Source: Tritonibacter litoralis
Lineage (GTDB): Bacteria; Pseudomonadota; Alphaproteobacteria; Rhodobacterales; Rhodobacteraceae
Length of the DNA stretch: 37,349 bases
Direction of reading: 5' to 3'
Assembly: GCF_009496005.1 (NCBI RefSeq)
Contig: NZ_WIBF01000021.1
Span: 1 to 37,349 of the forward strand
This document shows, one piece after another, positions 2,950 through 35,556 of this stretch (position 1 is the stretch's first letter; each line of letters starts with the position of its first letter). Both the position numbers and the translations under genes were made by a program. The notes under the pieces were generated by a model. The model was given only the letters and a program-made list of their open reading frames with translations. It searched no databases and was not told where the DNA came from.

Positions 2950-2953
2950 GATT

Positions 2954-16732: not shown

Positions 16733-17209
16733 TCACTCTTCTTTCAGCGTCAAAAGATAGGCGACCACGTCCTCAACCTGCTGAGCGGTCAACAAAGGCT
16801 GGACCTCGCCATCGCCATGCGCGTCGCCGGTATAGGCATCGCCAAGGCGAATAAATCCGTCGGTGCGATAGAACGAAGGCATCATGCTGCCTTCGAACAT
16901 GACCTTGGCGTTGGCAACAATTCCGCGAAGCTCGGCAACCGTCCAGCGATCCGCAACGCCATCCAGCATTGGACCGATTTCGCCGTGAAACGGCAAATGG
17001 CTCAAGGCACTGACTTGGTGACAGGCAATGCAATTGCCCGCCCCCTTGTTCATCACCTCTGCGCCAACGGCTGGATCTCCCGGCTTACCGCTCAATGAGG
17101 CGGCAACGGCCCCGTCAACATATATCACATCCTGAGGTTTGGTGACGTCGCACCATCCGATGCCGGCCGTCAGCACAACGGCGACAGCGGCTCCAAAAGC
17201 GGTTCTCAT
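16733..17209 (-). CDS. soxX: SoxX, monoheme cytochrome of the SoxAX complex
   Basis: This 158-residue class I cytochrome c has a signal peptide of about 20 residues, one haem site CIACH (60-64), and a probable distal Met in GSMMPSFYR (109/110). With SoxA it forms the heterodimeric c-type cytochrome that initiates thiosulfate oxidation. The ATG at 17209 is chosen because GGGAGGG precedes it and the signal peptide starts there; upstream in-frame codons read through the promoter region. It opens the structural part of the operon, after a 153-base gap containing a strong operator-like palindrome. Confidence 0.94.
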   Translation of the reverse strand: MRTAFGAAVAVVLTAGIGWCDVTKPQDVIYVDGAVAASLSGKPGDPAVGAEVMNKGAGNCIACHQVSALSHLPFHGEIGPMLDGVADRWTVAELRGIVANAKVMFEGSMMPSFYRTDGFIRLGDAYTGDAHGDGEVQPLLTAQQVEDVVAYLLTLKEE

Positions 17210-17284
17210 GCGCCCTCCCTGGGTTCGATTCCTCTCCTTGGGTAAAGACCAGTCTAGGGCACATAATTTCGAACACGCAACAAC

Positions 17285-17304
17285 AAATTCATCTACGTGA
17301 ATTT
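17285..17304. promoter_or_regulatory. Candidate SoxR operator in the soxW-soxX gap
   Basis: AAATTCA (17285-17291) and TGAATTT (17298-17304) are exact inverted arms around a 6-base spacer, giving the ATTC-N8-GAAT core. In Pseudaminobacter salicylatoxidans SoxR is known to bind the equivalent wx region, and the related SqrR is reported, as I recall, to use an ATTC-N8-GAAT motif. The site lies 76 bases before the soxX start. Confidence 0.7.
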
Positions 17305-17362
17305 TTTTATATGTTCGCAAGTGCAGCATTCTGCGCACAAGTATTGCGTGAAAACACTGCTT

Positions 17363-17923
17363 TTAGTCCTTTTGCTCCAGAAATTTCCGCGCGTGATACT
17401 TTTGAAAGGGTTCCTGCCCCTCATAGCCTTTCTCAACCACCCACGTGAGCAGGTTCAGCGTTGTCCAACGACCAAAAGCGCCGGGCATGCTAACCACTGC
17501 GGCTTCCTGGGCTGATACCCCATCCCCCACCTCTTCTGGAAAGAAATACAGGCTGGGCGTGAACAAAGCGCCCCACCGCCGGACCATCTCTTTTTCCGGC
17601 AGGACGGTTCCATCAAAATCGGTAACCTCGATATCGCCGAACATATTGATCTGCACGACAAAGAAATGATCCTCGATCATCTGGGCGATGTCCGGTACCA
17701 CAAAGACTTCTTCGTGCATCTTTGTGCAATAGATACACCCGCGCTGTTCCACCAGGACCATCAATCGTTTGCCTTCGGCATTGGCATCCGCAAGGTCTTC
17801 GGCAAGATCCTTGAAAGTGTCGCGCATCCACGGCGCTTTGTGCAGACCGTCATCACCCAGCTCGGCAGCGCTCAGGCCTGTTGCCAAGGCCAAAGCGGCC
17901 AGTCCAAGAATAATCCGTTTCAT
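17363..17923 (-). CDS. soxW: SoxW, periplasmic thioredoxin
   Basis: This 186-residue protein has a signal peptide (about 1-20, ending LSAAELG) and a thioredoxin-fold redox motif CIYC at 63-66. SoxW accepts reductant from SoxV and keeps periplasmic Sox thiols reduced. The ATG at 17923 follows GGGAGGATC. It is 22 bases after soxV and is separated from soxX by an operator-bearing gap, so soxVW and soxX-F may be separately initiated. Confidence 0.92.
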   Translation of the reverse strand: MKRIILGLAALALATGLSAAELGDDGLHKAPWMRDTFKDLAEDLADANAEGKRLMVLVEQRGCIYCTKMHEEVFVVPDIAQMIEDHFFVVQINMFGDIEVTDFDGTVLPEKEMVRRWGALFTPSLYFFPEEVGDGVSAQEAAVVSMPGAFGRWTTLNLLTWVVEKGYEGQEPFQKYHARKFLEQKD

Positions 17924-17945
17924 TGTCGATCCTCCCAAATCAATT

Positions 17946-18686
17946 TCACCCCAACTGGGTAAACCAGGGGATATGCTCCAACATCCACGCCGCAATGAGA
18001 TTGACCGAATTGGTCGCGATCAGCACGCCAAAGAGGATCAACAACAACCCCATCAGCTTTTCGACCAACCCCAGGTATTTTCGAAAACCCGCCATCCAAC
18101 GCATAAACGGCCCGATAAACAAAGCGGCCAGAACAAAGGGAAATGTCATTCCCAACCCATAAAGGAACAGCAGCCAGGCCCCTTGGCCTGCGGTCTCTTG
18201 GCCTGCCGCCGTAAAAAGGATTGCAGCCAAAACCGGTCCGACACAGGGCGTCCAGCCAAAGGCAAAGGCAAGCCCAATCACGTAAGCGCCAAGAAACCCG
18301 ACATTGGACACATCCCCCGCATCTGCGCGCAATTGGCGATACAGAATTCCGATCTTCACAACACCCAGGAAATGCAGCCCCATGGCAATAATGAGCGCCG
18401 CCGCCCCCCAGCGCAGGATGTCAAAATAGTCTCGCAACACCCCACCAAAAAGCGAAGCGCTGGCCCCAAGGCCTACAAAAACCGTGATCACCCCAAGGGA
18501 AAAACAAGTCGCCGAGATCACAGCCCGCAGCCGCACCGCGCGCGAGATATCAGTCCCGGCAGAAATCTGATTCATCCCGATTCCCGCCATGTAGCTCAGA
18601 TAAAATGGCACGATTGGCAGGATGCAGGGTGATAAAAAAGACAGCAATCCCGCGGTTACAGCCCCCAAAATCGTGACATCAAACAT
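17946..18686 (-). CDS. soxV: SoxV, CcdA/DsbD-type membrane thiol transporter
   Basis: This 246-residue protein has six predicted membrane helices. The two redox cysteines sit in the CcdA signature positions: Cys21 (SFLSPCILPIVPFYLSY) and the FGWTPCVGP motif in TM4. It shuttles electrons from cytosolic thioredoxin to SoxW in the periplasm. The start at 18686 (MFDVTILGAV) has the TM1 directly after it; a short upstream in-frame extension lacks support. It is divergent from soxS across 84 bases. Confidence 0.93.
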   Translation of the reverse strand: MFDVTILGAVTAGLLSFLSPCILPIVPFYLSYMAGIGMNQISAGTDISRAVRLRAVISATCFSLGVITVFVGLGASASLFGGVLRDYFDILRWGAAALIIAMGLHFLGVVKIGILYRQLRADAGDVSNVGFLGAYVIGLAFAFGWTPCVGPVLAAILFTAAGQETAGQGAWLLFLYGLGMTFPFVLAALFIGPFMRWMAGFRKYLGLVEKLMGLLLILFGVLIATNSVNLIAAWMLEHIPWFTQLG

Positions 18687-18712
18687 AATACCGCCAAACG
18701 TTGCTTTTAGAC

Positions 18713-18728
18713 ATTCACACATTAGATT
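18713..18728. promoter_or_regulatory. Candidate SoxR operator between soxV and soxS
   Basis: ATTC (18713-18716), 8 bases and GATT (18725-18728) give a one-mismatch version of the ATTC-N8-GAAT box. It overlaps a further AT-rich near-palindrome, ATTATGTATGAT. In Pseudaminobacter the homologous sv region is a known SoxR target, so a site here is expected; the exact bases are my estimate. Confidence 0.45.
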
Positions 18729-18770
18729 ATGTATGATTAAATTGAGACGTCAACAAAAAGGGCAAATCAG

Positions 18771-19133
18771 ATGCTGCGCGCCTCATTGATCATACTGGCC
18801 TGTGCCCTGCCGATCTCAGCTGCGGCTGAGACGGTGCTCCTCATGGCTGAAGAAGATGGCTGTGTTTGGTGTGCAAAATGGGATTCTGAGATTTCGCATA
18901 TCTATCCCAAGACAGCCGAAGGCCGCACAGCGCCGCTGGAACGCTATGATCTGCGCGGAGAGACGCCAGCGTATGAGTTTACCCGCCGAGTCACCTTTAC
19001 ACCGACATTCCTTTTAATAGACGATGGACAAGAGGTTGGACGCATCGAAGGCTATCCAGGAGAAGATTTCTTTTGGCCACTTCTGAACGACCTTTTTGCG
19101 CGTGCAGGTATTTCCTTGGATCAGCGCGGTTGA
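18771..19133 (+). CDS. soxS: SoxS, periplasmic thioredoxin-like protein
   Basis: This 120-residue protein has a signal peptide (about 1-19, ending ISAAAE) and the redox motif CVWC (31-34), followed by the thioredoxin-like TFTPTFLLIDDG with its cis-proline. SoxS is known to maintain or reactivate the SoxYZ carrier thiol. It opens the soxSRT operon, divergent from soxV, and is separated from soxR by 6 bases. Confidence 0.9.
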   Translation: MLRASLIILACALPISAAAETVLLMAEEDGCVWCAKWDSEISHIYPKTAEGRTAPLERYDLRGETPAYEFTRRVTFTPTFLLIDDGQEVGRIEGYPGEDFFWPLLNDLFARAGISLDQRG

Positions 19134-19139
19134 CCCATT

Positions 19140-19523
19140 ATGGAAAAGACTATGAGTACTGACATGCCGACCCCGCCCGAGACATCCTCTCGCCTGCCCG
19201 TCTTTGACGCAAACATGTGCGCTGAGGATATGGACCGGATGATGGAGAACGCACAGCGTGCGTCCAACTTCTTGAAGGCGATCAGCCACGAGGGTCGTTT
19301 GATGATCCTGTGTCATCTGGCGTCGGGCGAAAAATCCGTGACCGAGCTCGAAGAGCTGTTATCCGCGCGCCAGGCTGCGGTGTCGCAGCAACTGTCCCGT
19401 CTCCGCCTCGAAGGGCTGGTGACGCCACGCCGCGATGGTAAGACCATTTACTATCGCTTGACAGACGACCGGCCAAAGCAAATCATGGAAGTTGTCTACG
19501 ACCTGTTCTGTAGGGAGGACTGA
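19140..19523 (+). CDS. soxR: SoxR, ArsR-family repressor with persulfide-sensor cysteines
   Basis: This 127-residue winged-helix repressor has its recognition helix near 78-90 (RQAAVSQQLSRLRLEGL) and the wing RRDGKTIYYRL. Cysteines are at 27, 58 (LMILCHL) and 124 (DLFC). The 66-residue spacing of Cys58 and Cys124 equals that of Cys41 and Cys107 of Rhodobacter SqrR, which form an intramolecular polysulfide link. It should therefore derepress sox genes when sulfane sulfur accumulates. The start is uncertain: ATG at 19140 is taken, but Met5 at 19152 has the better ribosome-binding site (GGAAA). Confidence 0.92.
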   Translation: MEKTMSTDMPTPPETSSRLPVFDANMCAEDMDRMMENAQRASNFLKAISHEGRLMILCHLASGEKSVTELEELLSARQAAVSQQLSRLRLEGLVTPRRDGKTIYYRLTDDRPKQIMEVVYDLFCRED

Positions 19524-19576
19524 CCAGCGCAATTCTTGTTGTCGCCGGTCCAAGGGTGGTGACAGGGAGGATCACA

Positions 19577-20629
19577 GTGCTGGAATGGCTCGGCGAAGCA
19601 AACACCGCCGCGCTGGTGGGTCTATTGGGCGGCATCGCTCTTGGACTGGCTGCGCGCATCGGTCGGTTTTGCACACTTGGTGCGATCGAAGACATGCTCT
19701 ATGGCGGCGACGATCGACGCTTGCGGATGTGGGGGATCGCCATCGGCACCGCCATCGTCGCAACCCATATGGCGGTCGCGTTTGACTTGTTTGATCTCTC
19801 TCACTCTGCCTACCTGGATCGGGCTTGGAACCCCGTTGGCACCCTCATCGGCGGGCTGATGTTTGGCTATGGTATGGCGCTTAGCGGGAATTGCGGATAT
19901 GGCGCGCTTGCCCGGCTGGGCGGCGGGGATCTCAGGGCCTTTGTCATTGTGATTGTGATGGGGCTTTCGGCCTATTTTGTCATGTCCGGTCCGCTGGCCC
20001 ATGGGCGAGTTTGGCTGTTTCCGGTTGAAACGGGAACAACGCAGCCACAGGGGTTTTCTCAACTGGCCGACCAGATGGGCCTCCCGCCAGGGCTGATTGG
20101 CCTGACAGTTGGACTGGGGTTTTTCGCATTGTCCCTGTCGAGTGCGAAAATACGCAGCGCGCCCAAATACATCTTTTGGGGTGTGATCGTCGGACTTGCC
20201 GTGACGTCGGGTTGGGTGGGAACATCCTGGATCGCAACCGCAGGATTTGCCGCAGAACCCATTGAAACCCATACGTTTGCAGCCCCAATTGGGGACACCA
20301 TCTTGTATGGTATGACGGCCTCAGGAAATGCGCTGTCGTTCAGCGTTGGCTCCATTTGCGGCGTGGTTCTGGGGGCTATTCTTGGATCCTGGAGCAAAGG
20401 TCACTTCCGCTGGGAGGCCTGCGACGATCCCCGCGAATTGGGCCGCCAAATACTGGGCGCGGCGCTAATGGGCCCCGGCGCTGTGCTGGCGGTGGGATGC
20501 AGCGTCGGCCAGGGGATCGCGGCCTTCTCCGTCTTGGCCTTCAGCGCGCCAATTGCGCTTTTGGCCATCCTTGTGGGGGCAGCCCTGGGTCTGAAACAGC
20601 TCATTGCAGGCTTTACCACCGCGTCCTAA
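19577..20629 (+). CDS. soxT: SoxT, YeeE/YedE-family sulfur-compound transporter
   Basis: This integral membrane protein of about 350 residues has roughly ten helices. It carries the conserved cysteines of the YeeE/YedE (TsuA, PmpA/B) family: RFCTLGAIED, SGNCGYGALARLGGGDLR, GSICGVVLG and VGCSVGQGI. Family members pass thiosulfate or related sulfur species through relays of these thiols. A GTG at 19577 is preferred because GGGAGG lies 6 bases before it; an earlier in-frame GTG at 19556 has no site. It is third in soxSRT, and in Pseudaminobacter this cluster is required for chemolithotrophic growth on thiosulfate. It could import substrate for sensing by SoxR or export product. Confidence 0.88.
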   Translation: MLEWLGEANTAALVGLLGGIALGLAARIGRFCTLGAIEDMLYGGDDRRLRMWGIAIGTAIVATHMAVAFDLFDLSHSAYLDRAWNPVGTLIGGLMFGYGMALSGNCGYGALARLGGGDLRAFVIVIVMGLSAYFVMSGPLAHGRVWLFPVETGTTQPQGFSQLADQMGLPPGLIGLTVGLGFFALSLSSAKIRSAPKYIFWGVIVGLAVTSGWVGTSWIATAGFAAEPIETHTFAAPIGDTILYGMTASGNALSFSVGSICGVVLGAILGSWSKGHFRWEACDDPRELGRQILGAALMGPGAVLAVGCSVGQGIAAFSVLAFSAPIALLAILVGAALGLKQLIAGFTTAS

Positions 20630-20650: not shown

Positions 20651-21433
20651 CTACAAGGTAGCAGGCATATGCGGCGGGGAAATGTCCCGCACCTTGTGCA
20701 ACAGATCGATGAACCCCGCCACCTGATGCTGGGCCGTGGCCGCGCCTTTTTCTGCGGTCGCCAGGCTTGCATCCCCAACGGTGCCATCCGGATTCAGATC
20801 CGAGGCGATCCAACCCCGGCTGACCGGCCCAATGGGCGAGATCGGATCCGTCATTGCAGCGGATTTGAAATTCTGCGCCTGTGTCATGTCCACCGTGTCC
20901 GGAAAAAAGCTACGCATCAGCGAGGTCTCAACATCGCCGCCGTGAATACCGTATCGGCGTTCCTCTTCTGTAAACAGACCCTCGGGATGGCCGAAACTGC
21001 CCCACTGGCATTTCACCGCCAACATCCCCGCCTGGATCCGCAATTCCCGGCTGAGGATCGAGATCAAATCCAGATTGCCGCCGTGGCTGTTGACGATCAC
21101 CAGTTTGCGAAAACCGGCGCGGGCGATGGACAGGCCAATCTCGGTCCAGACCTCCAAGGCAGAGGCCGCCGACAGGGTCAACGTGCCTTTGGCCCACAAA
21201 TGTTCATTGGATTTCCCCACCGCCTGCACCGGCAAGACCCAGGCCTCCAGATCATCGGGGCAAGACCTGCGGAATGTCGCCAGCATGCCTTCCATGATCA
21301 ACGTATCCGTTCCCACCGGCAGATGCGGTCCGTGTTGTTCGATGGCAGCGGTGGGCAAAATGGCGATGCTGCGATCAGGGTCGATGTGGTCGAAATCAGG
21401 GGCGCGGCATTCGGCCCAGTTATAAACGCTCAT
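20651..21433 (-). CDS. Creatininase-family amidohydrolase
   Basis: This 260-residue cytosolic metal-dependent hydrolase of the creatininase/Arf fold carries the family metal motifs EQHGPHLPVGTD (32-43), NSHGGN (115-120) and HGGDVETS (164-171). The family opens cyclic amides (creatinine) or cleaves formamides. Its ATG overlaps the stop of the oxygenase gene (ATGA), so it is the last step of the nine-gene operon. It would fit opening of a ring made by the upstream amidohydrolase and oxygenase. Whether the substrate is creatinine cannot be told. Confidence 0.85.
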   Translation of the reverse strand: MSVYNWAECRAPDFDHIDPDRSIAILPTAAIEQHGPHLPVGTDTLIMEGMLATFRRSCPDDLEAWVLPVQAVGKSNEHLWAKGTLTLSAASALEVWTEIGLSIARAGFRKLVIVNSHGGNLDLISILSRELRIQAGMLAVKCQWGSFGHPEGLFTEEERRYGIHGGDVETSLMRSFFPDTVDMTQAQNFKSAAMTDPISPIGPVSRGWIASDLNPDGTVGDASLATAEKGAATAQHQVAGFIDLLHKVRDISPPHMPATL

Positions 21434-22350
21434 GTGGGGTCCTTGCTGTCATAGGTCGCCGTCAGCCGCATCCGCAGATAGTCGGCGGCCAAAATGGGGG
21501 CAAAGGCGGGGGCACCGGTGCCCGGAAGGGCTGCAATCAGACTGTCTGGATTGGGATCAAGGAAAAACGCAATCGAGCGCCGGGCCCGAGGCGGGGCCAG
21601 AACCCGGTGCGGGGTCGAGACATAGGTGTTATTGCTCCACCGCATCAGGCAATCGCCAATATTGACCACAAAGGCACCCGGCACATGGGGCACATCGGTC
21701 CAATGGCCACCGCGCGGACGCACTTGCAGCCCCGGCGCATCATCCGTCATCAGCAGTGTGATACTGCCATAATCCGTATGAGCGCCCGCGCCGATCTCAT
21801 CCGCGAGGCCTTGCGCGGGTGGATAGGACAGCATGCGCAAGGTAGCCATGGGTGCGGTGAAATGCGGAGCAAAGAACCCCGGATCCAGCCCCAGATCCAC
21901 CTCAAACGCGCGGTGAAGGGCCACGCCAAAGGCCAGCGCCGCGTCATAGTATTGCAAGGCCGTGTCGCGAAACCCCGGCAAATCAGGCCAGACATTGACC
22001 CCGCGAAACGGCTCTCCTGCCAGAACCCGTGGGTCATCCACCGCCAGATCAAACCCCACGTTAAACGCCTGTTTCTGATCCACCTGCCCCGAGGTTTCAT
22101 CCAACCGTTCCGACCCAACCGCCGCCCATCCACGATTGTGCGGGTTATTGGCAATCGACAGCGGTGCCTTGGCCACATCCGGTTGGGCAAAAAACGCATC
22201 CGCCTGGGCAAAGAGCTCTTGTACCAGCGCCATCGGCAGCGGATGGTTCGTGATCAGAAAAAACCCGGTGTCCCGGCAGGCCTGCCCCAAAGCGGCGGCA
22301 AAGCCTGCGGGATCCGCCGCGTTCTGGTGCCAATCCAAAACAGGTATCAT
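21430..22350 (-). CDS. Fe(II)/2-oxoglutarate oxygenase, isopenicillin-N-synthase-like
   Basis: This 306-residue protein has the jelly-roll iron site HTD (His191, Asp193) in GAHTDYGSITLL and His248 in STPHRV. An R-x-S pair at 257/259 (RRSIAFF) is the signature for 2-oxoglutarate binding, making it a dioxygenase rather than a true isopenicillin N synthase. An N-terminal DIOX_N region covers about 2-110. Members hydroxylate or demethylate small molecules, including pyrimidines in fungal thymine 7-hydroxylase. The start at 22350 follows AAGGCGC. It lies 11 bases after the quinone oxidoreductase gene and overlaps the creatininase. Confidence 0.88.
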   Translation of the reverse strand: MIPVLDWHQNAADPAGFAAALGQACRDTGFFLITNHPLPMALVQELFAQADAFFAQPDVAKAPLSIANNPHNRGWAAVGSERLDETSGQVDQKQAFNVGFDLAVDDPRVLAGEPFRGVNVWPDLPGFRDTALQYYDAALAFGVALHRAFEVDLGLDPGFFAPHFTAPMATLRMLSYPPAQGLADEIGAGAHTDYGSITLLMTDDAPGLQVRPRGGHWTDVPHVPGAFVVNIGDCLMRWSNNTYVSTPHRVLAPPRARRSIAFFLDPNPDSLIAALPGTGAPAFAPILAADYLRMRLTATYDSKDPT

Positions 22351-22361
22351 GTCAGCGCCTT

Positions 22362-22964
22362 TCAATAGGGGGTCAGCAGGTAATCCAGCCGCCGATCCAC
22401 CCGCACCAGATGTTTGGCGCGGCTTTCGGTGGTGGAGCCGTCCATCAGGTAATGCGCGGCAAAGGCGGTCTTGCACCCCCGCGCGCACAAGGCCCGCACG
22501 CCCCGCTGCAAAATGCGTCGCCCCGGCGCGCCAATCATCCGTGTCAGCCACCAGCTGGCCCCGCAAGTGGTAAAGACCCCCAAACGTTCGATATGGCGCA
22601 ACCCAGGTTCGATATTGCCCCCTTCAGGCGGCGGCATGTGAAACGCAAGGCCAGGCACCAGGACCCGATCCAACCACCCTTTGAGCATCGCCGGAGGCCC
22701 ATACCACCAGGTTGGATAGACAAAGATAATCGTGTCGCACCATTCCAGCGCTTCGCAGTCTTCCTCGATCCCGGTTCGGTTGAGCGCTTGATCCTCGTAG
22801 AACGAATGCCCCTGCGCAGTGAGAACTGGATTAAACTGACGGTCATACAGATCCAGAACCCGGGTTTGCGCGCCAATCAATTCCAGCCGCTTCACCACGC
22901 GCTCTTTGACCGCATGGGTAAAGCTGCTGGGGCGCGGATGGCAGTAAACAACCAAAGCTTTCAT
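22362..22964 (-). CDS. NAD(P)H dehydrogenase (quinone)-like flavoprotein, copy 1
   Basis: This 200-residue flavodoxin-fold protein is of the NQO1/MdaB/KefF type. The FAD/FMN phosphate loop is near the N-terminus (CHPRPSSFTHAVKERV), the active-site strand has FVYPTWWYGPPAMLKGWLDR, and a glycine-bearing loop TTCGASWW lies near 135. It reduces quinones or a bound substrate with two electrons. Its ATG shares one base with the preceding stop (TAATG). It is clearly paralogous to the neighbouring gene but well diverged. Confidence 0.85.
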   Translation of the reverse strand: MKALVVYCHPRPSSFTHAVKERVVKRLELIGAQTRVLDLYDRQFNPVLTAQGHSFYEDQALNRTGIEEDCEALEWCDTIIFVYPTWWYGPPAMLKGWLDRVLVPGLAFHMPPPEGGNIEPGLRHIERLGVFTTCGASWWLTRMIGAPGRRILQRGVRALCARGCKTAFAAHYLMDGSTTESRAKHLVRVDRRLDYLLTPY

Positions 22965-23542
22965 TACAAACTTCCTATGGTGTGTCGCACCCGCGCCAGA
23001 TGGGCCTGGCGCGTTGCGTCTGTATTTCGGTTCATATCGTACAGCGGCAAATACCGGGTCGGCGGCATGCCACAGGCATAGCGCAGCGACCGGGTCACTG
23101 TTTTGCGCGGCGGATCACCGTTCAGCATGGCCCGCCACCGCGTGCCACCATAGGTCGTGCAGGCCACCAGTTTTTTGACATTTGTCAGCCCCGGGCGGAC
23201 CTTGCCGTTTTCCAGTTTGAAACTGACCCCCGGCAAATTCACCCGATCCAGAAAACCTTTTAAAATGGCCGGATAGCCAAAATTCCACACCGGAAACACC
23301 ATCACCAATGCATCCGCTGCCCGCAGACGCTCCACATAGGCCCGCACGGTTTCGATGTTGGATGGCTCGTCGTGATACCCACGTCGTTCCTCGGTCGTGA
23401 GCACGGGTGAGAACCCTTCGGAGTAAAGATTGCAATCATCAACCTGCCATCCGCTGTCCCCCAAGGCTTCGATGACGGTTTCATGCACCGCCGCGTTAAA
23501 GCTTTCGGGACAAGGATGCGCAAACAGGACCAAGGCACGCAT
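22964..23542 (-). CDS. NAD(P)H dehydrogenase (quinone)-like flavoprotein, copy 2
   Basis: This 192-residue flavodoxin-fold oxidoreductase has the same motifs as its neighbour: AHPCPESFNAAVHETV for flavin phosphate binding, FPVWNFGYPAILKGFLDR, and TTYGGTRWRAM. Its ATG begins 1 base after the oxidase stop. Having two adjacent copies in one operon suggests a heterodimer or two sequential reductions. Reoxidising the FAD oxidase through the quinone pool, or detoxifying a quinoid product, are both possible. Confidence 0.85.
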   Translation of the reverse strand: MRALVLFAHPCPESFNAAVHETVIEALGDSGWQVDDCNLYSEGFSPVLTTEERRGYHDEPSNIETVRAYVERLRAADALVMVFPVWNFGYPAILKGFLDRVNLPGVSFKLENGKVRPGLTNVKKLVACTTYGGTRWRAMLNGDPPRKTVTRSLRYACGMPPTRYLPLYDMNRNTDATRQAHLARVRHTIGSL

Positions 23543-23543
23543 T

Positions 23544-24947
23544 TTAATCGTCCGCTTCCATCATCTCGGGATAGGCATACATGCGGCTGTAATCCCAATC
23601 CGGCGCATCCCATGTGACCATCTTGCCGGGATTTAACAGCCCCTTTGGGTCCGCCTCCCGCTTGAAATCCAGCTGGCGATTGTCCGCATGCTGTCGGCCG
23701 CCTTCCTCTAACGTATAACGGTGCGGGTTAAAGATCAGCGCGCCGGCATCCTCGTGGATCTGGATGATCTCTTCCAGCCGTTCCTCGGTGGTGAATTTCA
23801 CCATCGACAGCCCGGCAAAAGCCACTTTGCCCTCCATCCGGATCGCCTCTAGGTGCTGGATCACCTCGCCATCCGGGAAGGACCCGCGCATTTGCTCCAC
23901 CAGCTCTTTGGAATTGGGATAACCATAACGCACCTGCAGATAGGTGATCGTTGGGTCTACCTTGAGCGCACGCAAGGTCGTGTGGTTCCAGCCATATTCA
24001 AACACCAAACCGGGGCTGCGCGGCCAGTCGTGATCGTCACTGCGGTAAATCATCTCCACCTCGGGGCGACGCGCCAACAGGGTCACCAGCCCCGCCATCG
24101 ACTGCGGAGCCACCATCAGCCCAACCAGATGGTCATCATCCTCCACAAAAGGGGCCACGCGTTGGAAATAGGATTTGGCGGTTGGCGCCTCGTAGACCGA
24201 GGCGATTTTCAACAAAATCCCGTCTGAATTCGCCAGATCCTCGGCCAAGGCCATGGCGGCGGCAAAATCCTTGGTCTTCACAAAGACGCCGGTCCAATCA
24301 TAGGCCGGCGCCAGCGGCAATTCCAATTCGGTGATAATCCCGTTGGTACCATAGGCATGGGAGACCCGCGCCAGCTCTTCGCCGGTAAATTCCAGCACGC
24401 GCGGCTCTTCCTCCATGGTGACAACACGAAGGCGGATGATATTGCCCAGATCCCGCAGCGACCCCCAGGTGACCGATCCAACCCCGCCGGAGCCCCCCGC
24501 GATAAAACCGCCGATGGTGGCCGTTGACCATGTGGAGGACACCATCCGCAGCTCGTGGCCTGCCTGTTCCTTGCAAAAGGCATCGAGGTCCTTCAGCAGG
24601 CAACCGGGTTCCACCACCACCCGACCGGGTTCGCAGGATTTGACCGCTGTCATATGGCGCAAATGCATGACACAGCCGCCGCGCATCGGCATCGCCTGCC
24701 CATAGTTGCCGGTCCCGGCCCCGCGGGTGGTGACGGGCACGTCATGGGCGTAACAGGTTTTCAAAACCTCTATCACCTCGGCCTCGCTGCGCGGACGCAC
24801 GACAAAATCAGCCCGCAGATGGTCCAGACGTTTCTTGAGCACGGGCGAATACCAGAAAAAATCGCGCGAGGCAGCGGTGATCGCGTTTGGGTTTTCTTCG
24901 ATATCCAAATGGGCAAGGGCGGCCTTGGCGGCATCGATATGGGTCAT
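23544..24947 (-). CDS. FAD-binding oxidase/dehydrogenase (VAO/GlcD-type)
   Basis: This 467-residue protein has the PCMH-type FAD-binding fold: VVRPRSEAEVIEVLK (about 50-65), VTTRGAGTGNYGQAMPMRGG (about 72-91), and STATIGGFIAGGSGGVGSVTWG (split around 143-164). The C-terminal segment ends with the usual GLLNPGKMVTWD. Relatives oxidise alpha-hydroxy acids, alcohols or amines. No covalent-FAD histidine is obvious. It sits between the amidohydrolase and the flavodoxin-fold reductases, which suggests an oxidation step on the liberated ring or side chain. Confidence 0.85.
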   Translation of the reverse strand: MTHIDAAKAALAHLDIEENPNAITAASRDFFWYSPVLKKRLDHLRADFVVRPRSEAEVIEVLKTCYAHDVPVTTRGAGTGNYGQAMPMRGGCVMHLRHMTAVKSCEPGRVVVEPGCLLKDLDAFCKEQAGHELRMVSSTWSTATIGGFIAGGSGGVGSVTWGSLRDLGNIIRLRVVTMEEEPRVLEFTGEELARVSHAYGTNGIITELELPLAPAYDWTGVFVKTKDFAAAMALAEDLANSDGILLKIASVYEAPTAKSYFQRVAPFVEDDDHLVGLMVAPQSMAGLVTLLARRPEVEMIYRSDDHDWPRSPGLVFEYGWNHTTLRALKVDPTITYLQVRYGYPNSKELVEQMRGSFPDGEVIQHLEAIRMEGKVAFAGLSMVKFTTEERLEEIIQIHEDAGALIFNPHRYTLEEGGRQHADNRQLDFKREADPKGLLNPGKMVTWDAPDWDYSRMYAYPEMMEADD

Positions 24948-24968
24948 CTCAGGTCCTTGGGTCAGGTC

Positions 24969-26225
24969 TTATTCAAACAAATCATCAAGTTCGGCGTAAT
25001 CCGGCAGGGTCCGGTCAATCACTGCGCCATCGCGCAGCACAATGCGGTTGGACTGCGGGCGCGCCATCAGCTCGGTCCAGTTGCGCGCGGGGCAGATCAC
25101 CAGATCCGCCGGTGCTCCAGCGGCCAGGCTGGTGGGCGCGAACCCACAGGCACGCGCAGGCGTGCTAGAAAAGGCGCGGATCCAATCCGGGTCGGAATGA
25201 TCCAGATGGGCGATCCGGGTGGCCTCGCGCAGGACTTCTATCATGTCCAAGTCGCCATAGGCATAAAACGGATCGCGCGTATTGTCCGAGGCAAAGGAGA
25301 CAGGAATGCCGCGCGCCTTCATCTCATGCACCAGGGTGACGCCCCGCCTGCGGGGGGTGCGGCCCGTGTCGCGGTCCTGCAGATACATGTTGCACATGGG
25401 CAGGCTGACCACATTCAGCCCCGCCTTTGCCACCAGATCCAATGTATCCAGCGCGCGTGTCTCATCCTGAGCAGACAAGGAACACAGGTGGCCCACTTGG
25501 ATCGGTGCATCAAACCCGGTCTCTAACTTAGCTTCACAGATGGTGCGCAGCGTTTCTGACGTGGGGTCCATCGTCTCGTCCACGTGGAAATCCACCGGCA
25601 GATGCCGTTCCGCCGCCAGGGCAAAGAATTTGACCAACAGCGGTTTCAGACCCTCCATCGGATAGGTCACCAGCCCCAAAACGCCACCGTATTGCGCGAC
25701 CAGATCCGCCGTGTGCAGGAACCGCCCGTCAATCTCAACCCTGTCACAACCGCCCAGACAGGCGGCCTGCAAATCGATCCGTCCGGCCCAGGCGTCACGC
25801 AGCTCGGCAAACACCGGCCACGAGATATCATCCTGCCCCGGCGGGCTGTCGAGATGGGTGCGAATGGCGCGGGTGCCATGGGCATAGGCGCAGCGCAGCG
25901 CGAAATCAGCCCGGCGGCGCACATCATCGCTGCTCCAATTGGCGTGATCCTCCTTGACCGTGGTCAAGGCTCCCATAAACGTCCCATCCGGGTTGGCGGC
26001 CCGCGGCATGATATGGCCCTTGTCCAGATGGGTATGAGCATCGACAAAGGCGGGCAGAACCATGACGCCCGCCATGTCCACCGCAGGCCCGGTTGGGGCC
26101 ACGATTTTGCCATCAGCGATGCCCAGATCAACCCGTATCAGATCGCCGGGTTGATCCAGCAGGCTGGCTGGAACGGTCACGTTGTTCAGCGTAAATGCGC
26201 CGGTGGGAAGGGTTTTAAAATCCAT
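24969..26225 (-). CDS. Cytosine-deaminase-like amidohydrolase, copy 1
   Basis: This 418-residue TIM-barrel metal-dependent hydrolase is of the CodA/isopropylammelide hydrolase branch. Metal and catalytic residues visible are HTH (His64, His66 in DAHTHLDKGH), His214 and Glu217 (FHVDETMD), His246 (VGHLCS) and Asp314 (SDNTRDPF). Family members deaminate cytosine, isocytosine and triazines. The ATG at 26225 begins 2 bases after the permease stop, so it is coupled to an ABC importer. The natural substrate is probably an amino-substituted N-heterocycle taken up by that importer. Confidence 0.88.
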   Translation of the reverse strand: MDFKTLPTGAFTLNNVTVPASLLDQPGDLIRVDLGIADGKIVAPTGPAVDMAGVMVLPAFVDAHTHLDKGHIMPRAANPDGTFMGALTTVKEDHANWSSDDVRRRADFALRCAYAHGTRAIRTHLDSPPGQDDISWPVFAELRDAWAGRIDLQAACLGGCDRVEIDGRFLHTADLVAQYGGVLGLVTYPMEGLKPLLVKFFALAAERHLPVDFHVDETMDPTSETLRTICEAKLETGFDAPIQVGHLCSLSAQDETRALDTLDLVAKAGLNVVSLPMCNMYLQDRDTGRTPRRRGVTLVHEMKARGIPVSFASDNTRDPFYAYGDLDMIEVLREATRIAHLDHSDPDWIRAFSSTPARACGFAPTSLAAGAPADLVICPARNWTELMARPQSNRIVLRDGAVIDRTLPDYAELDDLFE

Positions 26226-26227
26226 CG

Positions 26228-27073
26228 TTACTCTCGTTTCAATGCGCTTTCGTGCCAGCGATAAAGGCACAGGTGGCTGATCAGGCTCATGAGCGCGAAC
26301 ACCAGAACACCCATGGCGGAAATCAGGATCAAAGCCGCGTAAAGCCTGCCGAAATTGAACCGGTATGACGCTTCAAGCAGCGTAGACGCCAGCCCCAGCC
26401 CGGTGCCTGCCCGGCCAATGACAAATTCCGCCACCACCGCACCGATCAGCGCCAGTCCACCAGCGATTTTCAACCCACCCAGAAAGAACGGCAGCGCCGA
26501 GGGCGCAGTCAGATACCGCAGCCGTTGCCAGCCTGTCGCGCCGTAAATGGAAAACAGGTCCTGCAGATTGTGATCGGCGGATTTCAGACCAATAGTGGTG
26601 TTCGACAGGATCGGGAAAAACGCCACGATCCAGGCGCACAGCAAAGCCGCCACAAAGGCGCTGTCCACATAGATCTGCAACAAAGGCGCAATCGCCACCA
26701 CCGGCGTCACCTGCAGTACCACCGCATAGGGAAACAGCGACATCTCAACCCATTTGGACTGGGTGAAGGCCACCGCTAGCCCCACGCCACCAATCACCGC
26801 CATCACCAGCGCGATCAGAGTCAGACGCCCGGTGATCACCATGGCGGGCCACAGGATGCCCCAATCCTTGATCATGGTTTCAGCAATCAAGGCAGGCGAC
26901 GGCAGGATGTAATGGGGCACCTCAGCCAGGGTCACATAGGCCTGCCAGGCCCCGATGGCGAGGATCAGAACCAAAGATGGCAAGGTCCAGCGCGCCAGTT
27001 TCAGGATCTGGTCGCGACGCGCGCGGGCCTCTTCTTCGGCGTCCAGAATTGGGCTTGTGTCGACCTGGGTCAT
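26228..27073 (-). CDS. ABC transporter permease (SsuC/TauC/ThiX type)
   Basis: This 281-residue inner-membrane permease has about six helices and the EAA-type cytoplasmic loop (LQDLFSIYGATGWQRLRYL) that contacts the ATPase. It belongs to the nitrate/sulfonate/thiamine-precursor group of binding-protein permeases. A charged N-terminus of about 30 residues precedes TM1. Its ATG overlaps the stop of the ATPase gene (ATGA) and it is followed 2 bases later by the amidohydrolase. Confidence 0.9.
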   Translation of the reverse strand: MTQVDTSPILDAEEEARARRDQILKLARWTLPSLVLILAIGAWQAYVTLAEVPHYILPSPALIAETMIKDWGILWPAMVITGRLTLIALVMAVIGGVGLAVAFTQSKWVEMSLFPYAVVLQVTPVVAIAPLLQIYVDSAFVAALLCAWIVAFFPILSNTTIGLKSADHNLQDLFSIYGATGWQRLRYLTAPSALPFFLGGLKIAGGLALIGAVVAEFVIGRAGTGLGLASTLLEASYRFNFGRLYAALILISAMGVLVFALMSLISHLCLYRWHESALKRE

Positions 27074-27855
27074 GCGGCCACCTCAATCGCTTGGTGCAGG
27101 GCATCGGACGCCAGACGCGCATGTTCGGCGTATTCGGCAGAGGTGCGGAACGCCTCGTCGCGGGGATAGGGCGTGTCGACCTCCAATTCGCGGATCACCC
27201 GGCCAGGGCGCGCAGCCATGACCACAATCCGGTCCGACAAAAAGACCGATTCAAACACCGAATGGGTGACAAAAATCACCGTACAGCCAATGCGTTCGCG
27301 CAATTCCAACAGATCATTGTTCAGCTTGTGCCGGGTGATCTCGTCCAAGGCGGCAAAGGGTTCATCCATCAGGATCAGCCGCGGCTGGGTCACCATGGCC
27401 CGCGCGATAGAGACGCGCATTTTCATGCCACCCGACAATTCGCGGGGATAGGCGTTCTGAAACTTCTCCAACCCCACCAGTTTCAGCGCATAAAGCACCT
27501 CATCCTTGACCGAATTGTAACTCTTGCCCCGCAGGCGATAGGGCAGCCAGACGTTATATTTCACCGTCGCCCAGGGCATCAATGTGGGTTCCTGAAACAC
27601 CACACCCAAATCCCCCTCGCCCTGCCCACCGGACCAGGCAATCTGCCCAGATGTGGGCCGCATCAACCCTGCGATCAATCTGAGGGCCGTGGATTTTCCA
27701 CATCCCGACGGTCCCAAAAGCGAGATAAAATCCCCCTGGTTCACCGTCAGATTCATATTCCTGAGGGCCACAACATCGCCGCGAAATGTCTTTTCCACAT
27801 GGGACATGCGCAACAGCTCGTCCCGCTGCCCCAAGGCTGCGCGTTTAACCGCCAT
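27070..27855 (-). CDS. ABC transporter ATPase (SsuB/TauB/ThiZ type)
   Basis: This 261-residue nucleotide-binding subunit has Walker A GPSGCGKST (48-56), Q-loop FQEP near 88, signature LSGGMKMR (140-147), Walker B LILMDEP (160-166) and switch His198. The ATG at 27855 is chosen because GGGAGG precedes it at 8 bases; upstream in-frame codons lie in the gap after the binding-protein gene. It energises the permease encoded directly downstream. Confidence 0.92.
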   Translation of the reverse strand: MAVKRAALGQRDELLRMSHVEKTFRGDVVALRNMNLTVNQGDFISLLGPSGCGKSTALRLIAGLMRPTSGQIAWSGGQGEGDLGVVFQEPTLMPWATVKYNVWLPYRLRGKSYNSVKDEVLYALKLVGLEKFQNAYPRELSGGMKMRVSIARAMVTQPRLILMDEPFAALDEITRHKLNNDLLELRERIGCTVIFVTHSVFESVFLSDRIVVMAARPGRVIRELEVDTPYPRDEAFRTSAEYAEHARLASDALHQAIEVAA

Positions 27856-27912
27856 GTCTTCTTCCTCCCAAAAGGGTGGTGGGCCGGGATCCCCGGCCCG
27901 TGGTGCCAATGT

Positions 27913-28899
27913 TTACTGAAGCAGATCCAGACCAACGCCTTTGCCGACAAACTCGGTGGTAAAGGCGGCCTGATAATCCAGACCGGCCTCGATCACGCCC
28001 GCCTCAACCATCTTGTTGTAGAAATCAGAGACCTTCTGCTCTTCGATCAGGCCGATGCCCTTGGTCTCAGCCGCGCCCGAGATCACGATGCCATTGTCCT
28101 TCATCTTGGCAATGGCAAAATCGATCTTGTCCTGGGTCATTTCGGGGTTGTCGGACATGATCTGCGCGTTGGCAGCGGCATTGTCCCCATAAAGGTAGTT
28201 GTACCAGCCTTTGATCGACCCTTCGACAAAACAGGTCACCTCATCCGGTTTGCTGGCAATGGTGGGCGCCATCGTCTCGATCGTGGTGGCATAGGTCGAA
28301 TAGCCCGCATCGGCGATCAGGAAAACATCCGGCTCAAACCCGCCTTCTTTGGCCACCAAATAGGGTTCAGACGAAAGGTATCCCTGCATCGCCTTGCCCG
28401 TATCCGCCAGGAAGGGCGCGGGGTTGAACGTATAAGGCTGACGCTGCTCGGCGGTAAAGCCATAGGCCGCGATCATCCATTGGTAAAAGCTCTGATAGCC
28501 ATTGTCGCCGATCAGCAGCTCCAGCTTTTTCAGATCTTCAAAGCTTTCGGCCTGACCCGGATGGGTCACGATCACCTGCGGGTGTTTCTGGAAAATCGCC
28601 GCAACCGAGACCACGGGGATGCCTTCCTTGACCGCGTTAAAGGCCTGCAGCAGGTCGCCGCCCATGTGATAATCGATCTTGCCCGCCAAAAGCAGCGCGC
28701 GGTTGTTCACTTGGGGGCCGCCGGGCAGGATCGAGACCTTCAATCCGCATGCCTCATAGGTGCCATCAGCGGCGGCCTGATAAAAGCCCCCATGCTCGGC
28801 CTGTGCCAGCCAATTGGTGCCAAAGGTGACCTCAGTCGTGCCAGCATGCACTTGCGATGCGCTGATCAACGCCAGGGCGGTAAAGCTCAGTTTTTTCAT
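27913..28899 (-). CDS. ABC substrate-binding protein, NMT1/THI5-like
   Basis: This 328-residue periplasmic protein has a cleavable signal (about 1-19, SASQVHAG) followed by the NMT1/THI5-like fold (TFGTNWLAQAEHGGFYQAA and PGGPQVNN). Members bind pyrimidine-type thiamine precursors, sulfonates or related small heterocycles. With the coupled cytosine-deaminase-like enzyme, a pyrimidine-like ligand is a reasonable inference. It is the first gene of the nine-gene operon and is divergent from the Rid-family gene. The ATG has GGAGTG upstream. Confidence 0.88.
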   Translation of the reverse strand: MKKLSFTALALISASQVHAGTTEVTFGTNWLAQAEHGGFYQAAADGTYEACGLKVSILPGGPQVNNRALLLAGKIDYHMGGDLLQAFNAVKEGIPVVSVAAIFQKHPQVIVTHPGQAESFEDLKKLELLIGDNGYQSFYQWMIAAYGFTAEQRQPYTFNPAPFLADTGKAMQGYLSSEPYLVAKEGGFEPDVFLIADAGYSTYATTIETMAPTIASKPDEVTCFVEGSIKGWYNYLYGDNAAANAQIMSDNPEMTQDKIDFAIAKMKDNGIVISGAAETKGIGLIEEQKVSDFYNKMVEAGVIEAGLDYQAAFTTEFVGKGVGLDLLQ

Positions 28900-29102: not shown

Positions 29103-29495
29103 ATGATCAAAAGCCTGACCCCCACCCAGATGGCCGCACCTTTTGCGCGGTATGCCCATGGTGTTCTTGATCCCGCTTCGGGCCTGTTGCTGACCTCCGG
29201 CCAATTGGCGCTGAGCGTTGACGGCACCACACCCATTGGCGCGCAGGCGCAGGCGGATCTGATTTTCCACAATATCGACCTGATCCTGCAGGACGGCGGT
29301 GCCAGCCGCGCGGATGTTCTGCGTATCAATGCCTTTGTCACCGGGCGTGAGCATATGGCGGGATATATGGTGGCGCGCGATGCCTGGCTGGCGGATGTGC
29401 CACATCTGCCCGCATCCACGCTGATGATCGTTTCGGGCTTTACCCGCCCTGAGTTTGTGGTCGAGATCGAGGTGACCGCGCGGTGTCCGGCTTAG
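29103..29495 (+). CDS. Rid-family protein (YjgF/YER057c/UK114) lacking the RidA arginine
   Basis: This 130-residue protein has the chorismate-mutase-like Rid fold (LLTSGQLALSVDG, ASRADVLRINAFVTG, LPASTLMIVSGFTRPEFVVEIE). At the position where imine-hydrolysing RidA has arginine (PARS...), this protein reads PAST, with Ser105. It is therefore probably not a classical 2-aminoacrylate deaminase but one of the other Rid subgroups, which are often found with N-heterocycle catabolism (as RutC is with uracil). A clear AAGGAG lies 8 bases before the ATG. It is divergent from the NMT1-type operon and convergent with the second oxygenase. Confidence 0.85.
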   Translation: MIKSLTPTQMAAPFARYAHGVLDPASGLLLTSGQLALSVDGTTPIGAQAQADLIFHNIDLILQDGGASRADVLRINAFVTGREHMAGYMVARDAWLADVPHLPASTLMIVSGFTRPEFVVEIEVTARCPA

Positions 29496-29515
29496 GCCTG
29501 TCATTCACCCGGCCT
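29494..29515. terminator. Small hairpin at convergent gene ends
   Basis: AGGCC (29494-29498) pairs with GGCCT (29511-29515) over a 12-base loop spanning the 9-base gap between the convergent Rid and oxygenase stops. The stem is short, so a terminator role is tentative. Confidence 0.25.
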
Positions 29516-30497
29516 TTCCCGCGAAATTCGCACCCAAACGCATCTGGATGTAATCATGCGCTGTGATCGGCTCGTATTTCTGCGCCGGGCCTTGCAGGAC
29601 GGTGTCCATATTGGCCTGGGCGAAATAGGCAATGGAATAACGCGCATCCAGGCTTTCGCCTTCTTTGGGCATACGCACCCGATGCAGGTTTGACAGCAGC
29701 TGATCATCGCTCCAGCGCATCAACATATCACCGATATTGCAGGTGATGATCCCATCCTGTGGCGGCACATCGGTCCAGCCCAGCACGCGTCCGTCGGAAT
29801 CTTTGCCCGGACAGACCTGCAAACCGCCCTGCCCGCTGCGCTGATGCAACAACGTCAAACAGTCAAAATCCGTATGCGCCCCAGCCCGCCAGAATTTGAA
29901 ATCCTCGGGCTTGGCGTCTTTCATATCCAGGTAGTGCAACAGCCGCAAAGTGGACTGGTATTGATCCGAAAGCGGGTCGTGACCGTCGATAAAGACCGCA
30001 GGCGACACGCCCAGTTTATCCGCAAAACAGGACAGAACCCGCATGGCCAGCGCCCAGTTATGGCGTTCAAACGCCAACATGCTTGCTTTGAAATCCGGCA
30101 TCTCGGCTGTATCGGGCCATAGGCCCGCCATCCGCGGCAAGGTGATCTGATAGCTTTCTTTTTGATCCGCCGTTCCAGTCGACGGGCGGACCTGCGCCTT
30201 ATACTCCCACCCCGCATTGGTGCCGGGTTTCAGGGGCATCTTGGCCTTGGTCGCCTCGGGCTTGGCAAACAGCTGGGCGGATTGGGCAAAGGCTGTGTCG
30301 ATCAGTTCCTGCGGGATCCCGTGGTTCTTGAGTTGAAAAAACCCAATCTCAGTTGCCGCCTGCCACAGTTCTTCTGTGATGTCGGCCCGCCGGGTGCCAA
30401 AATCGGACATATCAATCACCGGTACATCCCGGTCGATTGTTACACCCGTTGCGCCAATACCAGTTTCCTTGCGCAGTTCCGCGAGGTCATGCGTCAT
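29505..30497 (-). CDS. Fe(II)/2-oxoglutarate oxygenase, isopenicillin-N-synthase-like, copy 2
   Basis: This protein of about 330 residues has the iron-binding triad His208/Asp210 (GAHTDFDCLTLL) and His272 (LHRVRMP), with the 2-oxoglutarate R-x-S at 286/288 (ARYSIAYF). The N-terminal DIOX_N segment begins VPVIDMSDFG. It shares the fold and general length with the oxygenase at 21430-22350 but is clearly diverged. ATG at 30497 is preferred, with AAGG 5 bases before it; ATG at 30506 is also in frame. It follows the BMP-transporter/deaminase operon after about 250 bases, so it may have its own promoter. Confidence 0.87.
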   Translation of the reverse strand: MTHDLAELRKETGIGATGVTIDRDVPVIDMSDFGTRRADITEELWQAATEIGFFQLKNHGIPQELIDTAFAQSAQLFAKPEATKAKMPLKPGTNAGWEYKAQVRPSTGTADQKESYQITLPRMAGLWPDTAEMPDFKASMLAFERHNWALAMRVLSCFADKLGVSPAVFIDGHDPLSDQYQSTLRLLHYLDMKDAKPEDFKFWRAGAHTDFDCLTLLHQRSGQGGLQVCPGKDSDGRVLGWTDVPPQDGIITCNIGDMLMRWSDDQLLSNLHRVRMPKEGESLDARYSIAYFAQANMDTVLQGPAQKYEPITAHDYIQMRLGANFAGKAG

Positions 30498-30701
30498 TGC
30501 ATCCATCCTTATCCAGGGGAGCAATGACCTGCGCCACAATGGCACTGCCTGCTTATACTCCAGTCAAAGATCACCGGTCGTGGGCGGCCGGGATCGGATC
30601 TATTCAATTGTCATCGTGAAAGAGCGTTCGGCTCTATGCGATCATTGAAACGCAGAGCGGTTTTTCAAAACAAGTTAAGCTTAAAGTTTCCGAGCGTTTT
30701 T

Positions 30702-30750: not shown

Positions 30751-32025
30751 TTAGACATCCATCCGACGGGCCACCACGTCGGGGCGCCCCGGCAGATCAA
30801 GCTGCGCATCGCCGCGCGCGCCGCGGGCCACAATCCGACCTTTGGAAATCACCGCCAAGCGCGGGGCCCGCAGGCGCAGCGCCTCGGTTGGCGAACCCGC
30901 ATCCAGCACCACCAGCGAGGCCTGCGCGCCCACTTTCAACCCATAATCCTGCAGGCCCAGGATCTGCGCATTGGTCTCGGTCACCATGGTGAAACAGCGC
31001 GCCATCTCGTCGGGATGGGTCATCTGAGCCACGTGTAATCCCATAAAGGCCACGTCCAGCATGTCTGCCGTGCCCAGGCTGTACCAGGGATCCAGCACGC
31101 AATCCTGTCCCCAGCCGACGCGAATACCCATGGCTTGCATTTCCTTGACCCGCGTCAGACCCCGCCGTTTGGGGAATGTGTCATGGCGCCCCTGCAGGAC
31201 GATATTGATCAACGGATTGGGAATGGCGCTGATCTCAGCCTCGGCCATCAGCGGCAGGAGTTTCGAGACATAGTAATTGTCCATCGAATGCATCGAGGTC
31301 AGATGACTGCCTGCCACCCGCCCTTGCAATCCAAGCCGCGTGGTCTCGTAGGCCAGCGTTTCAATATGGCGCGACAGCGGGTCGTCGGTCTCATCACAAT
31401 GGATATCCACCATCAGGCCCCGGTCCGCTGCGATCTGGCAAAGATCGGTGAGCGAGGCCGCGCCATCCGCCATGGTGCGTTCAAAATGCGGGATGCCGCC
31501 CACAACATCCACGCCCATATCCAACGCCCGCAGCAGGTTTTCCCGCCCGTTTGGCGCGCGGTACAGGCCATCCTGCGGGAAGGCGACCAACTGCAGATCC
31601 AGATAGCCTTTGACCTTGTCGCGCAGCTCCAGCATAGCCGTCACCGTGTTCAGGTGATTCGGCGTCGTGTCCACATGGCTGCGGATCGCCAAAAGGCCCA
31701 TGGACACCGCCCAATCGCAGTATTTCAGACCCCGCTCGACCATCTCCTCCACCGTGGCCAGATCCCGCAGCTCGCCCCAAAGGTCGATCCCCTCCAGCAA
31801 GGTTCCAGATGCGTTCACCCGCGGCGTGCCATAGGACAGGGTGGCGTCCATATGGAAATGCGGGTCCACAAAAGGCGGCGACACCAAGTCGCCAGTGGCA
31901 TCGATCACCTCTGCCGCCTCGGCGGTGATCTGCGGTGCAATCTCCACAATCCGGTCTCCGGTGATGGCTATGTCCTGCACCGATCCATCCGGCAATGTGC
32001 CGCCTTTGACCAGAATATCCAACAT
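30751..32025 (-). CDS. Cytosine-deaminase-like amidohydrolase, copy 2
   Basis: This 424-residue protein conserves the CodA active site: PHFHMD (His56, His58), HCDETDDPLSRH (His209, Glu212), GSHLTSMHSMD (His241) and GQDCVLDPW (Asp308). It is closer to true cytosine deaminase than the other copy, judging from the HCDETDD and GQD segments, though its substrate is unproven. The start is ATG at 32025, sharing a base with the permease stop (TGATG) and preceded by GGAGAG. It is thus the enzymatic end of a BMP-type import operon and probably acts on an imported nucleobase. Confidence 0.9.
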   Translation of the reverse strand: MLDILVKGGTLPDGSVQDIAITGDRIVEIAPQITAEAAEVIDATGDLVSPPFVDPHFHMDATLSYGTPRVNASGTLLEGIDLWGELRDLATVEEMVERGLKYCDWAVSMGLLAIRSHVDTTPNHLNTVTAMLELRDKVKGYLDLQLVAFPQDGLYRAPNGRENLLRALDMGVDVVGGIPHFERTMADGAASLTDLCQIAADRGLMVDIHCDETDDPLSRHIETLAYETTRLGLQGRVAGSHLTSMHSMDNYYVSKLLPLMAEAEISAIPNPLINIVLQGRHDTFPKRRGLTRVKEMQAMGIRVGWGQDCVLDPWYSLGTADMLDVAFMGLHVAQMTHPDEMARCFTMVTETNAQILGLQDYGLKVGAQASLVVLDAGSPTEALRLRAPRLAVISKGRIVARGARGDAQLDLPGRPDVVARRMDV

Positions 32026-32969: not shown

Positions 32970-32971
32970 CT

Positions 32972-35555: not shown

Positions 35556-35556
35556 A

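Follow-up and report, generated by a model that had tools for sequence, protein, structure and literature searches.

A compact operon of nine genes, which we suggest probably serves the import and breakdown of a pterin, lies on a contig of Tritonibacter litoralis (NZ_WIBF01000021.1, assembly GCF_009496005.1; genome 4.38 Mb). The window, as we call the whole stretch of DNA analysed here, is 37,349 nucleotides long, and the operon occupies 28899 to 20651 of its - strand, its genes overlapping or lying close together. It encodes, in this order, an NMT1/THI5-type periplasmic substrate-binding protein (SBP), the ATPase and permease of an ATP-binding cassette (ABC) importer, a CodA-like amidohydrolase (CodA1), a flavin adenine dinucleotide (FAD) enzyme, two NQO-type reductases, a 2-oxoglutarate oxygenase (2OGa) and a creatininase-family amidohydrolase (Table 1). 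The original prediction, made from the letters of this DNA, had described nine genes with these families in this order, and all nine are there. It overlooked a divergent gene for a RidA-family protein, which is co-conserved with the others and which we count as a tenth member, and also a predicted xanthine riboswitch on a neighbouring gene for a second 2-oxoglutarate oxygenase (2OGb).

Most junctions are overlaps or short gaps, as predicted, and range from -4 to +21 bases. The ATPase and permease genes overlap by 4 bases, the two reductase genes by 1 and the 2OGa and creatininase-family genes by 4; the gaps are 2 bases from permease to CodA1, 21 from CodA1 to the FAD gene, 1 from there to the first reductase gene and 11 from the second reductase gene to 2OGa. 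The exception is the SBP-to-ATPase gap, which measures 57 bases if the ATPase gene starts at the ATG at 27855, or 3 bases with an alternative TTG start at 27909. The SBP has 328 amino acids and an N-terminus that by eye resembles a signal peptide, and the window RidA protein is 48% identical to the product of an R. johnstonii gene annotated as RidA. No riboswitch was found on the nine-gene operon itself. The nearest named carriers of the window FAD gene are Roseobacter-group bacteria.

Table 1. Genes of the operon and associated features, with positions in the window.
Feature	Position	Strand	Evidence
NMT1/THI5-type periplasmic SBP	27913..28899	-	Pfam NMT1 71.1 bits, cut-off 20.5
ABC importer ATPase	27070..27855	-	Pfam ABC_tran 111.8 bits; ATG start
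ABC importer permease	26228..27073	-	Pfam BPD_transp_1 79.8 bits
CodA1, CodA-like amidohydrolase, proposed pterin deaminase	24969..26225	-	NCBIfam PRK07583 585.7 bits
FAD oxygenase/oxidase, VAO/GlcD fold (FAD_binding_4/VAO type)	23544..24947	-	homologue of PDB 6V42
NQO-type NAD(P)H:flavin/quinone reductase 2	22964..23542	-	Pfam Flavodoxin_2 115.1 bits
NQO-type NAD(P)H:flavin/quinone reductase 1	22362..22964	-	Pfam Flavodoxin_2 112.7 bits
2OGa, Fe(II)/2-oxoglutarate oxygenase, optional member	21430..22350	-	DIOX_N 92.7, 2OG-FeII_Oxy 85.8 bits
Creatininase-family amidohydrolase, proposed hydrolase of ring-opening or later step	20651..21433	-	Pfam Creatininase 226.8 bits
RidA-family protein, divergent tenth member	29103..29495	+	TIGR00004 33.9 bits, below cut-off 106.25
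2OGb, 2-oxoglutarate oxygenase behind riboswitch, associated neighbour	29505..30497	-	Pfam DIOX_N 77.9 bits
Predicted xanthine riboswitch (NMT1 RNA, RF03054), associated neighbour outside operon	30514..30565	-	39.2 bits, gathering score 36

Co-occurrence of the gene families in other genomes had been set beforehand as a check on the original prediction, and its absence as grounds for rejecting it; the families do recur, so those grounds fall away. The FAD protein was searched for in 394 genomes of the same family and 398 of the phylum, and matched (at E 1e-60 or better) in 134 and 32 of them, respectively. Matched loci were fetched at up to 20 kb, 60 from the family and 20 from the phylum, picked for long contigs and a spread of identities; contig ends depress some counts, for example at locus L064 with 10.8 kb. 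Named loci, the best 80 of 590, comprise 54 that are mostly beta- or gammaproteobacterial (L164-L217) and 26 more distant ones, mostly from cyanobacteria (L218-L243). Close relatives, as we call the family loci with an FAD protein 60% or more identical to that of the window, number 41: the SBP, ATPase and permease are each present at all of them, CodA1-type and NQO-type proteins each at 40, and creatininase-family and RidA proteins each at 36; 2OGa, found at 18 of the 41, is optional within the nine, and 2OGb was seen at 4. The other 19 family loci have a CodA1-type protein in every case, with creatininase (17), RidA (15), NQO (6) and the importer trio (5). Around the FAD genes of the 20 phylum loci we found creatininase and a deaminase of either type (18 each), importer (17), RidA and NQO (14 each), and around those of the 54 named loci importer (52), creatininase (47), a deaminase of either type (43), NQO (32) and RidA (28). 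At the 26 more distant loci creatininase occurs 8 times, a CodA1-type protein 4, the importer 3 and RidA 2; the rest of the set is mostly not near the cyanobacterial FAD genes. With identity and coverage thresholds unchanged, no operon family turned up in 20 control stretches, each of 20 kb, taken elsewhere in 20 of these family genomes; the families recur around homologous FAD genes more than chance would have it. The pieces are known, in that the deaminase is published and the FAD enzyme solved; neither the whole set nor its link to the riboswitch turned up in the literature searched.

The FAD enzyme connects the operon to folate. The window protein is related in full-length sequence and fold to the type represented by PDB 6V42, with 51% identity over 443 residues, and the title of that entry reads "flavin oxygenase ... 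involved in folate catabolism". The likeness to this enzyme (6V42/6V43) is one of sequence and entry title, and the same substrate or reaction is not implied. FAD proteins at four other loci (L141, L142, L144 and L146), which are among the nearest relatives of 6V42, are 73-75% identical to it, and these loci carry importer, CodA1-type, FAD, NQO, RidA and creatininase genes, the same neighbourhood as in the window.

The deaminase can be compared with enzymes that act on pterins. RidA proteins, such as the one encoded beside the operon, are often annotated as endoribonucleases. A pterin deaminase (PDA) described from Variovorax sp. F1 has 399 amino acids, is 37.0% identical to Arad3529 (of Agrobacterium radiobacter) and deaminates folate and pteroate, and "conserved endoribonuclease genes" sit downstream of its orthologues (PMC9513972). 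In six of six Variovorax genomes we found an amidohydrolase gene (matched stretch 375-412 amino acids) followed directly by a RidA gene, and these amidohydrolases, which we take as PDA candidates, are 35-39% identical to Rhizobium CodA1. At three of five Variovorax loci of 20 kb each, a creatininase-ATPase-permease-FAD-SBP-NQO-PDR operon lies beside the amidohydrolase-RidA pair, much as in the window, and the FAD proteins of those three are 40-41% identical to 6V42. When CodA1, 13 relatives and 2 Variovorax candidates were compared (16 rows, chosen from 48 such tree rows), all 16 kept the metal-binding residues, all carried Lys in HxHxDK and Asn in DN, and none had the Gln156 of CodA, whereas CodA2, a second CodA-like protein of the window, differs at all three sites. 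CodA1 has Gly and Asn at the positions of Gln156 and the second Asp (Asp314) of cytosine deaminase CodA, which we take to be substrate-binding residues, and so carries neither of them. CodA1 belongs to the same amidohydrolase group as Arad3529 and the Variovorax sp. F1 enzyme and, as judged from the Variovorax candidates, has the Lys and Asn and lacks the CodA Gln; it differs from these candidates in its tree group, in a part of the tree where the branching is not settled, and is about 37% identical to them. The tree separates CodA1-type proteins from CodA2 (100/100) and joins the Variovorax candidates with the deaminases of FAD loci L075, L076 and L163 (90/83), while the window CodA1 sits in a different group of 20 rows (99/99) together with the R. 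johnstonii protein. One of the 120 proteins listed nearest the latter carries the UniRef name "Pterin deaminase".

We consider it likely, on the strength of these sequence comparisons, that the operon takes in and degrades a pterin, either a 2-amino-4-oxopteridine derived from folate or a free one. The substrate, the reaction order and each catalytic step are ones that we infer, as follows. The NMT1-type ABC importer would take up the pterin, and CodA1 would strip it of its 2-amino group, leaving a lumazine. The VAO-fold FAD enzyme, which the two NQO-type reductases may serve, would oxidise or oxygenate this lumazine to allow opening of its uracil-like ring, and the creatininase-family amidohydrolase and RidA would hydrolyse cyclic amide or ureide and enamine or imine intermediates, yielding ammonia; 2OGa may contribute an optional hydroxylation. 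The steps after deamination are proposed by analogy with the Rut pathway, in which a flavin oxygenase, a flavin reductase, a RidA-type protein and a hydrolase act on the uracil ring. Counterparts of all four occur here, but the flavoenzyme differs in fold, being of the FAD_binding_4/VAO type, and a deaminase and a creatininase-family enzyme are added. Uptake of an N-heterocycle followed by deamination, oxidation and hydrolysis had been suggested in the original prediction, and this part stands as a model, in contrast to its guesses at a substrate. To call the substrate unidentified was, however, too strong, because the FAD homologue 6V42 is titled as an enzyme of folate catabolism and CodA1 shares its residues with the Variovorax candidates.

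Several points weigh against a pterin. The link to 6V42 is by the entry title, which gives no substrate, and neither 6V42 nor 6V43 was named in the literature searched. We take the Variovorax gene to be the cloned PDA on the basis of length, neighbour and identity, and two of the five Variovorax loci were without such an operon inside the 20 kb fetched. The identity of the window CodA1 to the Variovorax candidates is 37%, and because it belongs to a separate group, and the order of the groups is not settled, another substrate is possible. Nearly all other named proteins among the 120 are called "cytosine deaminase", and the NCBIfam model of that name, PRK07583, matches CodA1 above its cut-off (585.7 vs 403). 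Finally, in seven beta-type loci (L189, L195, L198, L208, L209, L210 and L212) a PRK12393-type deaminase lies between the permease and FAD genes, the usual slot of CodA1, which amounts to a swap of deaminase type inside a conserved operon. The PRK12393 family is related to 8-oxoguanine deaminase; this replacement and the adjacent xanthine riboswitch both point to purines.

The riboswitch match is the only one of RF03054 found in the genome. It precedes 2OGb, for which an alternative ATG exists at 30506 and whose best solved relative is thymine dioxygenase (E 8.6e-25). RNAs of this class bind xanthine and urate and turn expression off (PMC7373994), and in the aptamer C8 alone is solvent-exposed (PMC8266621); pterins and lumazines find no mention in the main texts of these two papers. 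Riboswitch genomes are enriched for the FAD gene: it is present in 10 of the 15 family genomes with a riboswitch (15 of 394) against 134/394 overall (p 0.009), and in 6 of the 17 such phylum genomes (17 of 398) against 26/381 of the others (p 0.001). Close linkage is rarer: riboswitch and FAD gene lie no more than 6 kb apart in 4 of the 15, with, in the phylum draw, adjacency in the window alone of the 17; a binomial estimate for adjacency of 8e-8 assumes independent genomes and is not a strict probability. Riboswitch and 2OGb adjoin the operon in the window and at L032, L033 and L036, and 2OGb occurs near FAD operons lacking a riboswitch match at L034 and the Acidovorax-type L182, L194 and L197. 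At 18 further riboswitch loci, 15 have a 2OGb homologue (two of them show the same gene) and two of the other three an NMT1-type protein. Scanned with a model built for this analysis, seven of the 80 named FAD loci had the riboswitch, one at a modest 29.7 bits; R1 matches of 18-21 bits (L073, L183, L198 and the second in L212) were not counted as riboswitches. Riboswitches stand beside FAD operons at loci of Klebsiella, Rahnella, Raoultella, Buttiauxella, Rouxiella, Ramlibacter and Sphaerotilus. In plasmid-collection records of Klebsiella and Rahnella the riboswitch heads an operon of SBP and PRK12393-type deaminase that diverges from the FAD operon, and in the Klebsiella record this operon also includes 2OGb. 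The riboswitch-FAD link is thus repeated in three classes and is not general.

Two side observations concern these records. At L036 (15961-16339) two riboswitch matches (65.5 and 32.8 bits), separated by about 280 bases, precede a single 2OGb gene, and closely paired, divergent copies also occur in several phylum-draw genomes. In the Klebsiella record L160, several genes of the two operons, at 1893-3309 and 5711-7774, are spread across overlapping frames and absent from the gene table, which suggests frameshifts in the record.

The linkage with the riboswitch and 2OGb in the window and at three other loci, the riboswitch beside FAD operons in the genera just named, the enrichment of riboswitch genomes for the FAD gene, and the PRK12393-type replacement would all suit an operon that degrades a purine, be it a base like guanine or 8-oxoguanine or else xanthine or urate, without xanthine dehydrogenase and together with 2OGb. 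Its surroundings resemble published RF03054 clusters in the riboswitch with an adjoining DIOX_N/pcbC-type oxygenase, in NMT1-type SBPs and, in relatives, in the PRK12393 deaminase; but the gene list in section 5 of that report contains no FAD enzyme, creatininase-family hydrolase or NQO-type reductases (PMC7373994). We nevertheless think a purine rather unlikely. The 6V42 title names folate, the operon itself has no riboswitch, and the genome has matches to xanthine dehydrogenase and OHCU decarboxylase elsewhere, which leaves less need for another plain purine route. As adjacency holds in just 4/15 and 1/17 riboswitch genomes, the riboswitch was dropped as proof of a purine pathway and reduced to a recurrent minority linkage. 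A resemblance of 2OGb to thymine-7-hydroxylase was likewise weakened as proof of a nucleobase-like substrate: Arg190, Tyr217 and Phe292 of that enzyme (the chain numbers lie, by our reading of the offset, two above the paper's) are faced by Arg, Phe and Phe in 2OGb, but the same clamp positions look alike by eye in 9ovh, an ethylene-forming-type enzyme, and are therefore not diagnostic. Overall, pterins are favoured by the FAD title and the deaminase residues, and purines by the riboswitch and the seven PRK12393 loci. Pterin and guanine share their pyrimidine half, as do lumazine and xanthine, and therefore systems for both may stand close together.

A further alternative is that the shared core handles a general ureide or cyclic-amide intermediate from several heterocycles, with deaminase and oxygenase swapped by substrate, so that no single substrate name would apply. 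In the 54 mostly beta/gamma loci the deaminase does vary (CodA1-type 35, PRK12393-type 13, either 43) while importer (52/54) and creatininase (47/54) are constant, and 2OGa and 2OGb are optional. In the window's family, however, the CodA1 type is the rule (40/41 close relatives and 19/19 other FAD loci), which argues for one main substrate class there and leaves this alternative improbable. Breakdown of a modified pyrimidine, a thiamine-pyrimidine fragment or a creatinine-like cyclic amide, as the original prediction had guessed, is very improbable: the PRK07583 (585.7 bits) and Pfam Creatininase (226.8 bits) matches and a weak similarity of the SBP to THI5 (E 0.0009) would fit it, but it gains little because Gly and Asn replace Gln156 and the second Asp in CodA1 while the neighbouring CodA2 retains the Gln, because the creatininase score is low, at 75 bits against a cut-off of 235 (TIGR04448), and because thiamine-pathway compounds showed no binding to RF03054-class RNA, in a test of the RNA and not of the importer (PMC7373994, section 6); the deaminase partner is, moreover, swapped for the PRK12393-type enzyme in seven relatives. 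Thiamine and creatinine were dropped on the model cut-offs and the CodA1 residues. The creatininase-family protein matched four NCBIfam models, in each case below the cut-off, and its identification as mycofactocin MftE (TIGR03964) was also rejected, at 92.6 bits against 172.

Two further gene groups lie in the window. On the - strand, 30751-36903 holds CodA2 (Gln156 retained, PRK07572 750.6 bits) and, by eye, a two-permease ABC importer, its ATPase and a BMP-like SBP, and is probably a nucleobase or nucleoside salvage cluster; at L034 the same cluster lies at the opposite end of the operon. Beyond the creatininase-family gene, at 16733-20629, cytochrome-c-like, thioredoxin-like, CcdA-like, ArsR-type regulator and YeeE/YedE-like genes, recognised by eye, are reminiscent of a sulfur-oxidation locus.

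A pteridine ring contraction, catalysed by the tetraoxypteridine isomerase of Alcaligenes, was reportedly known to enzymologists in the 1960s; these terms were absent among the literature matches listed. It is conceivable, though we regard it as unlikely, that the riboswitch near these operons itself serves pteridine metabolism, with a lumazine, or xanthine or xanthine-8-carboxylate from ring contraction, as its ligand. If true, the genes missing so far from pterin breakdown in bacteria would be those of this operon, and the idea would explain a riboswitch class that controls dioxygenases and transporters yet no xanthine-degrading genes. For the breakdown of the pterin ring in bacteria, deamination is established and the later steps were left open in the discussion of PMC9513972. 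The gene set described here offers a candidate pathway that is widely conserved and whose key enzyme has been solved structurally, so that those later steps can be tested directly. Should the link to the riboswitch hold, it would also touch on a question raised in PMC7373994, namely why such cells monitor xanthine.

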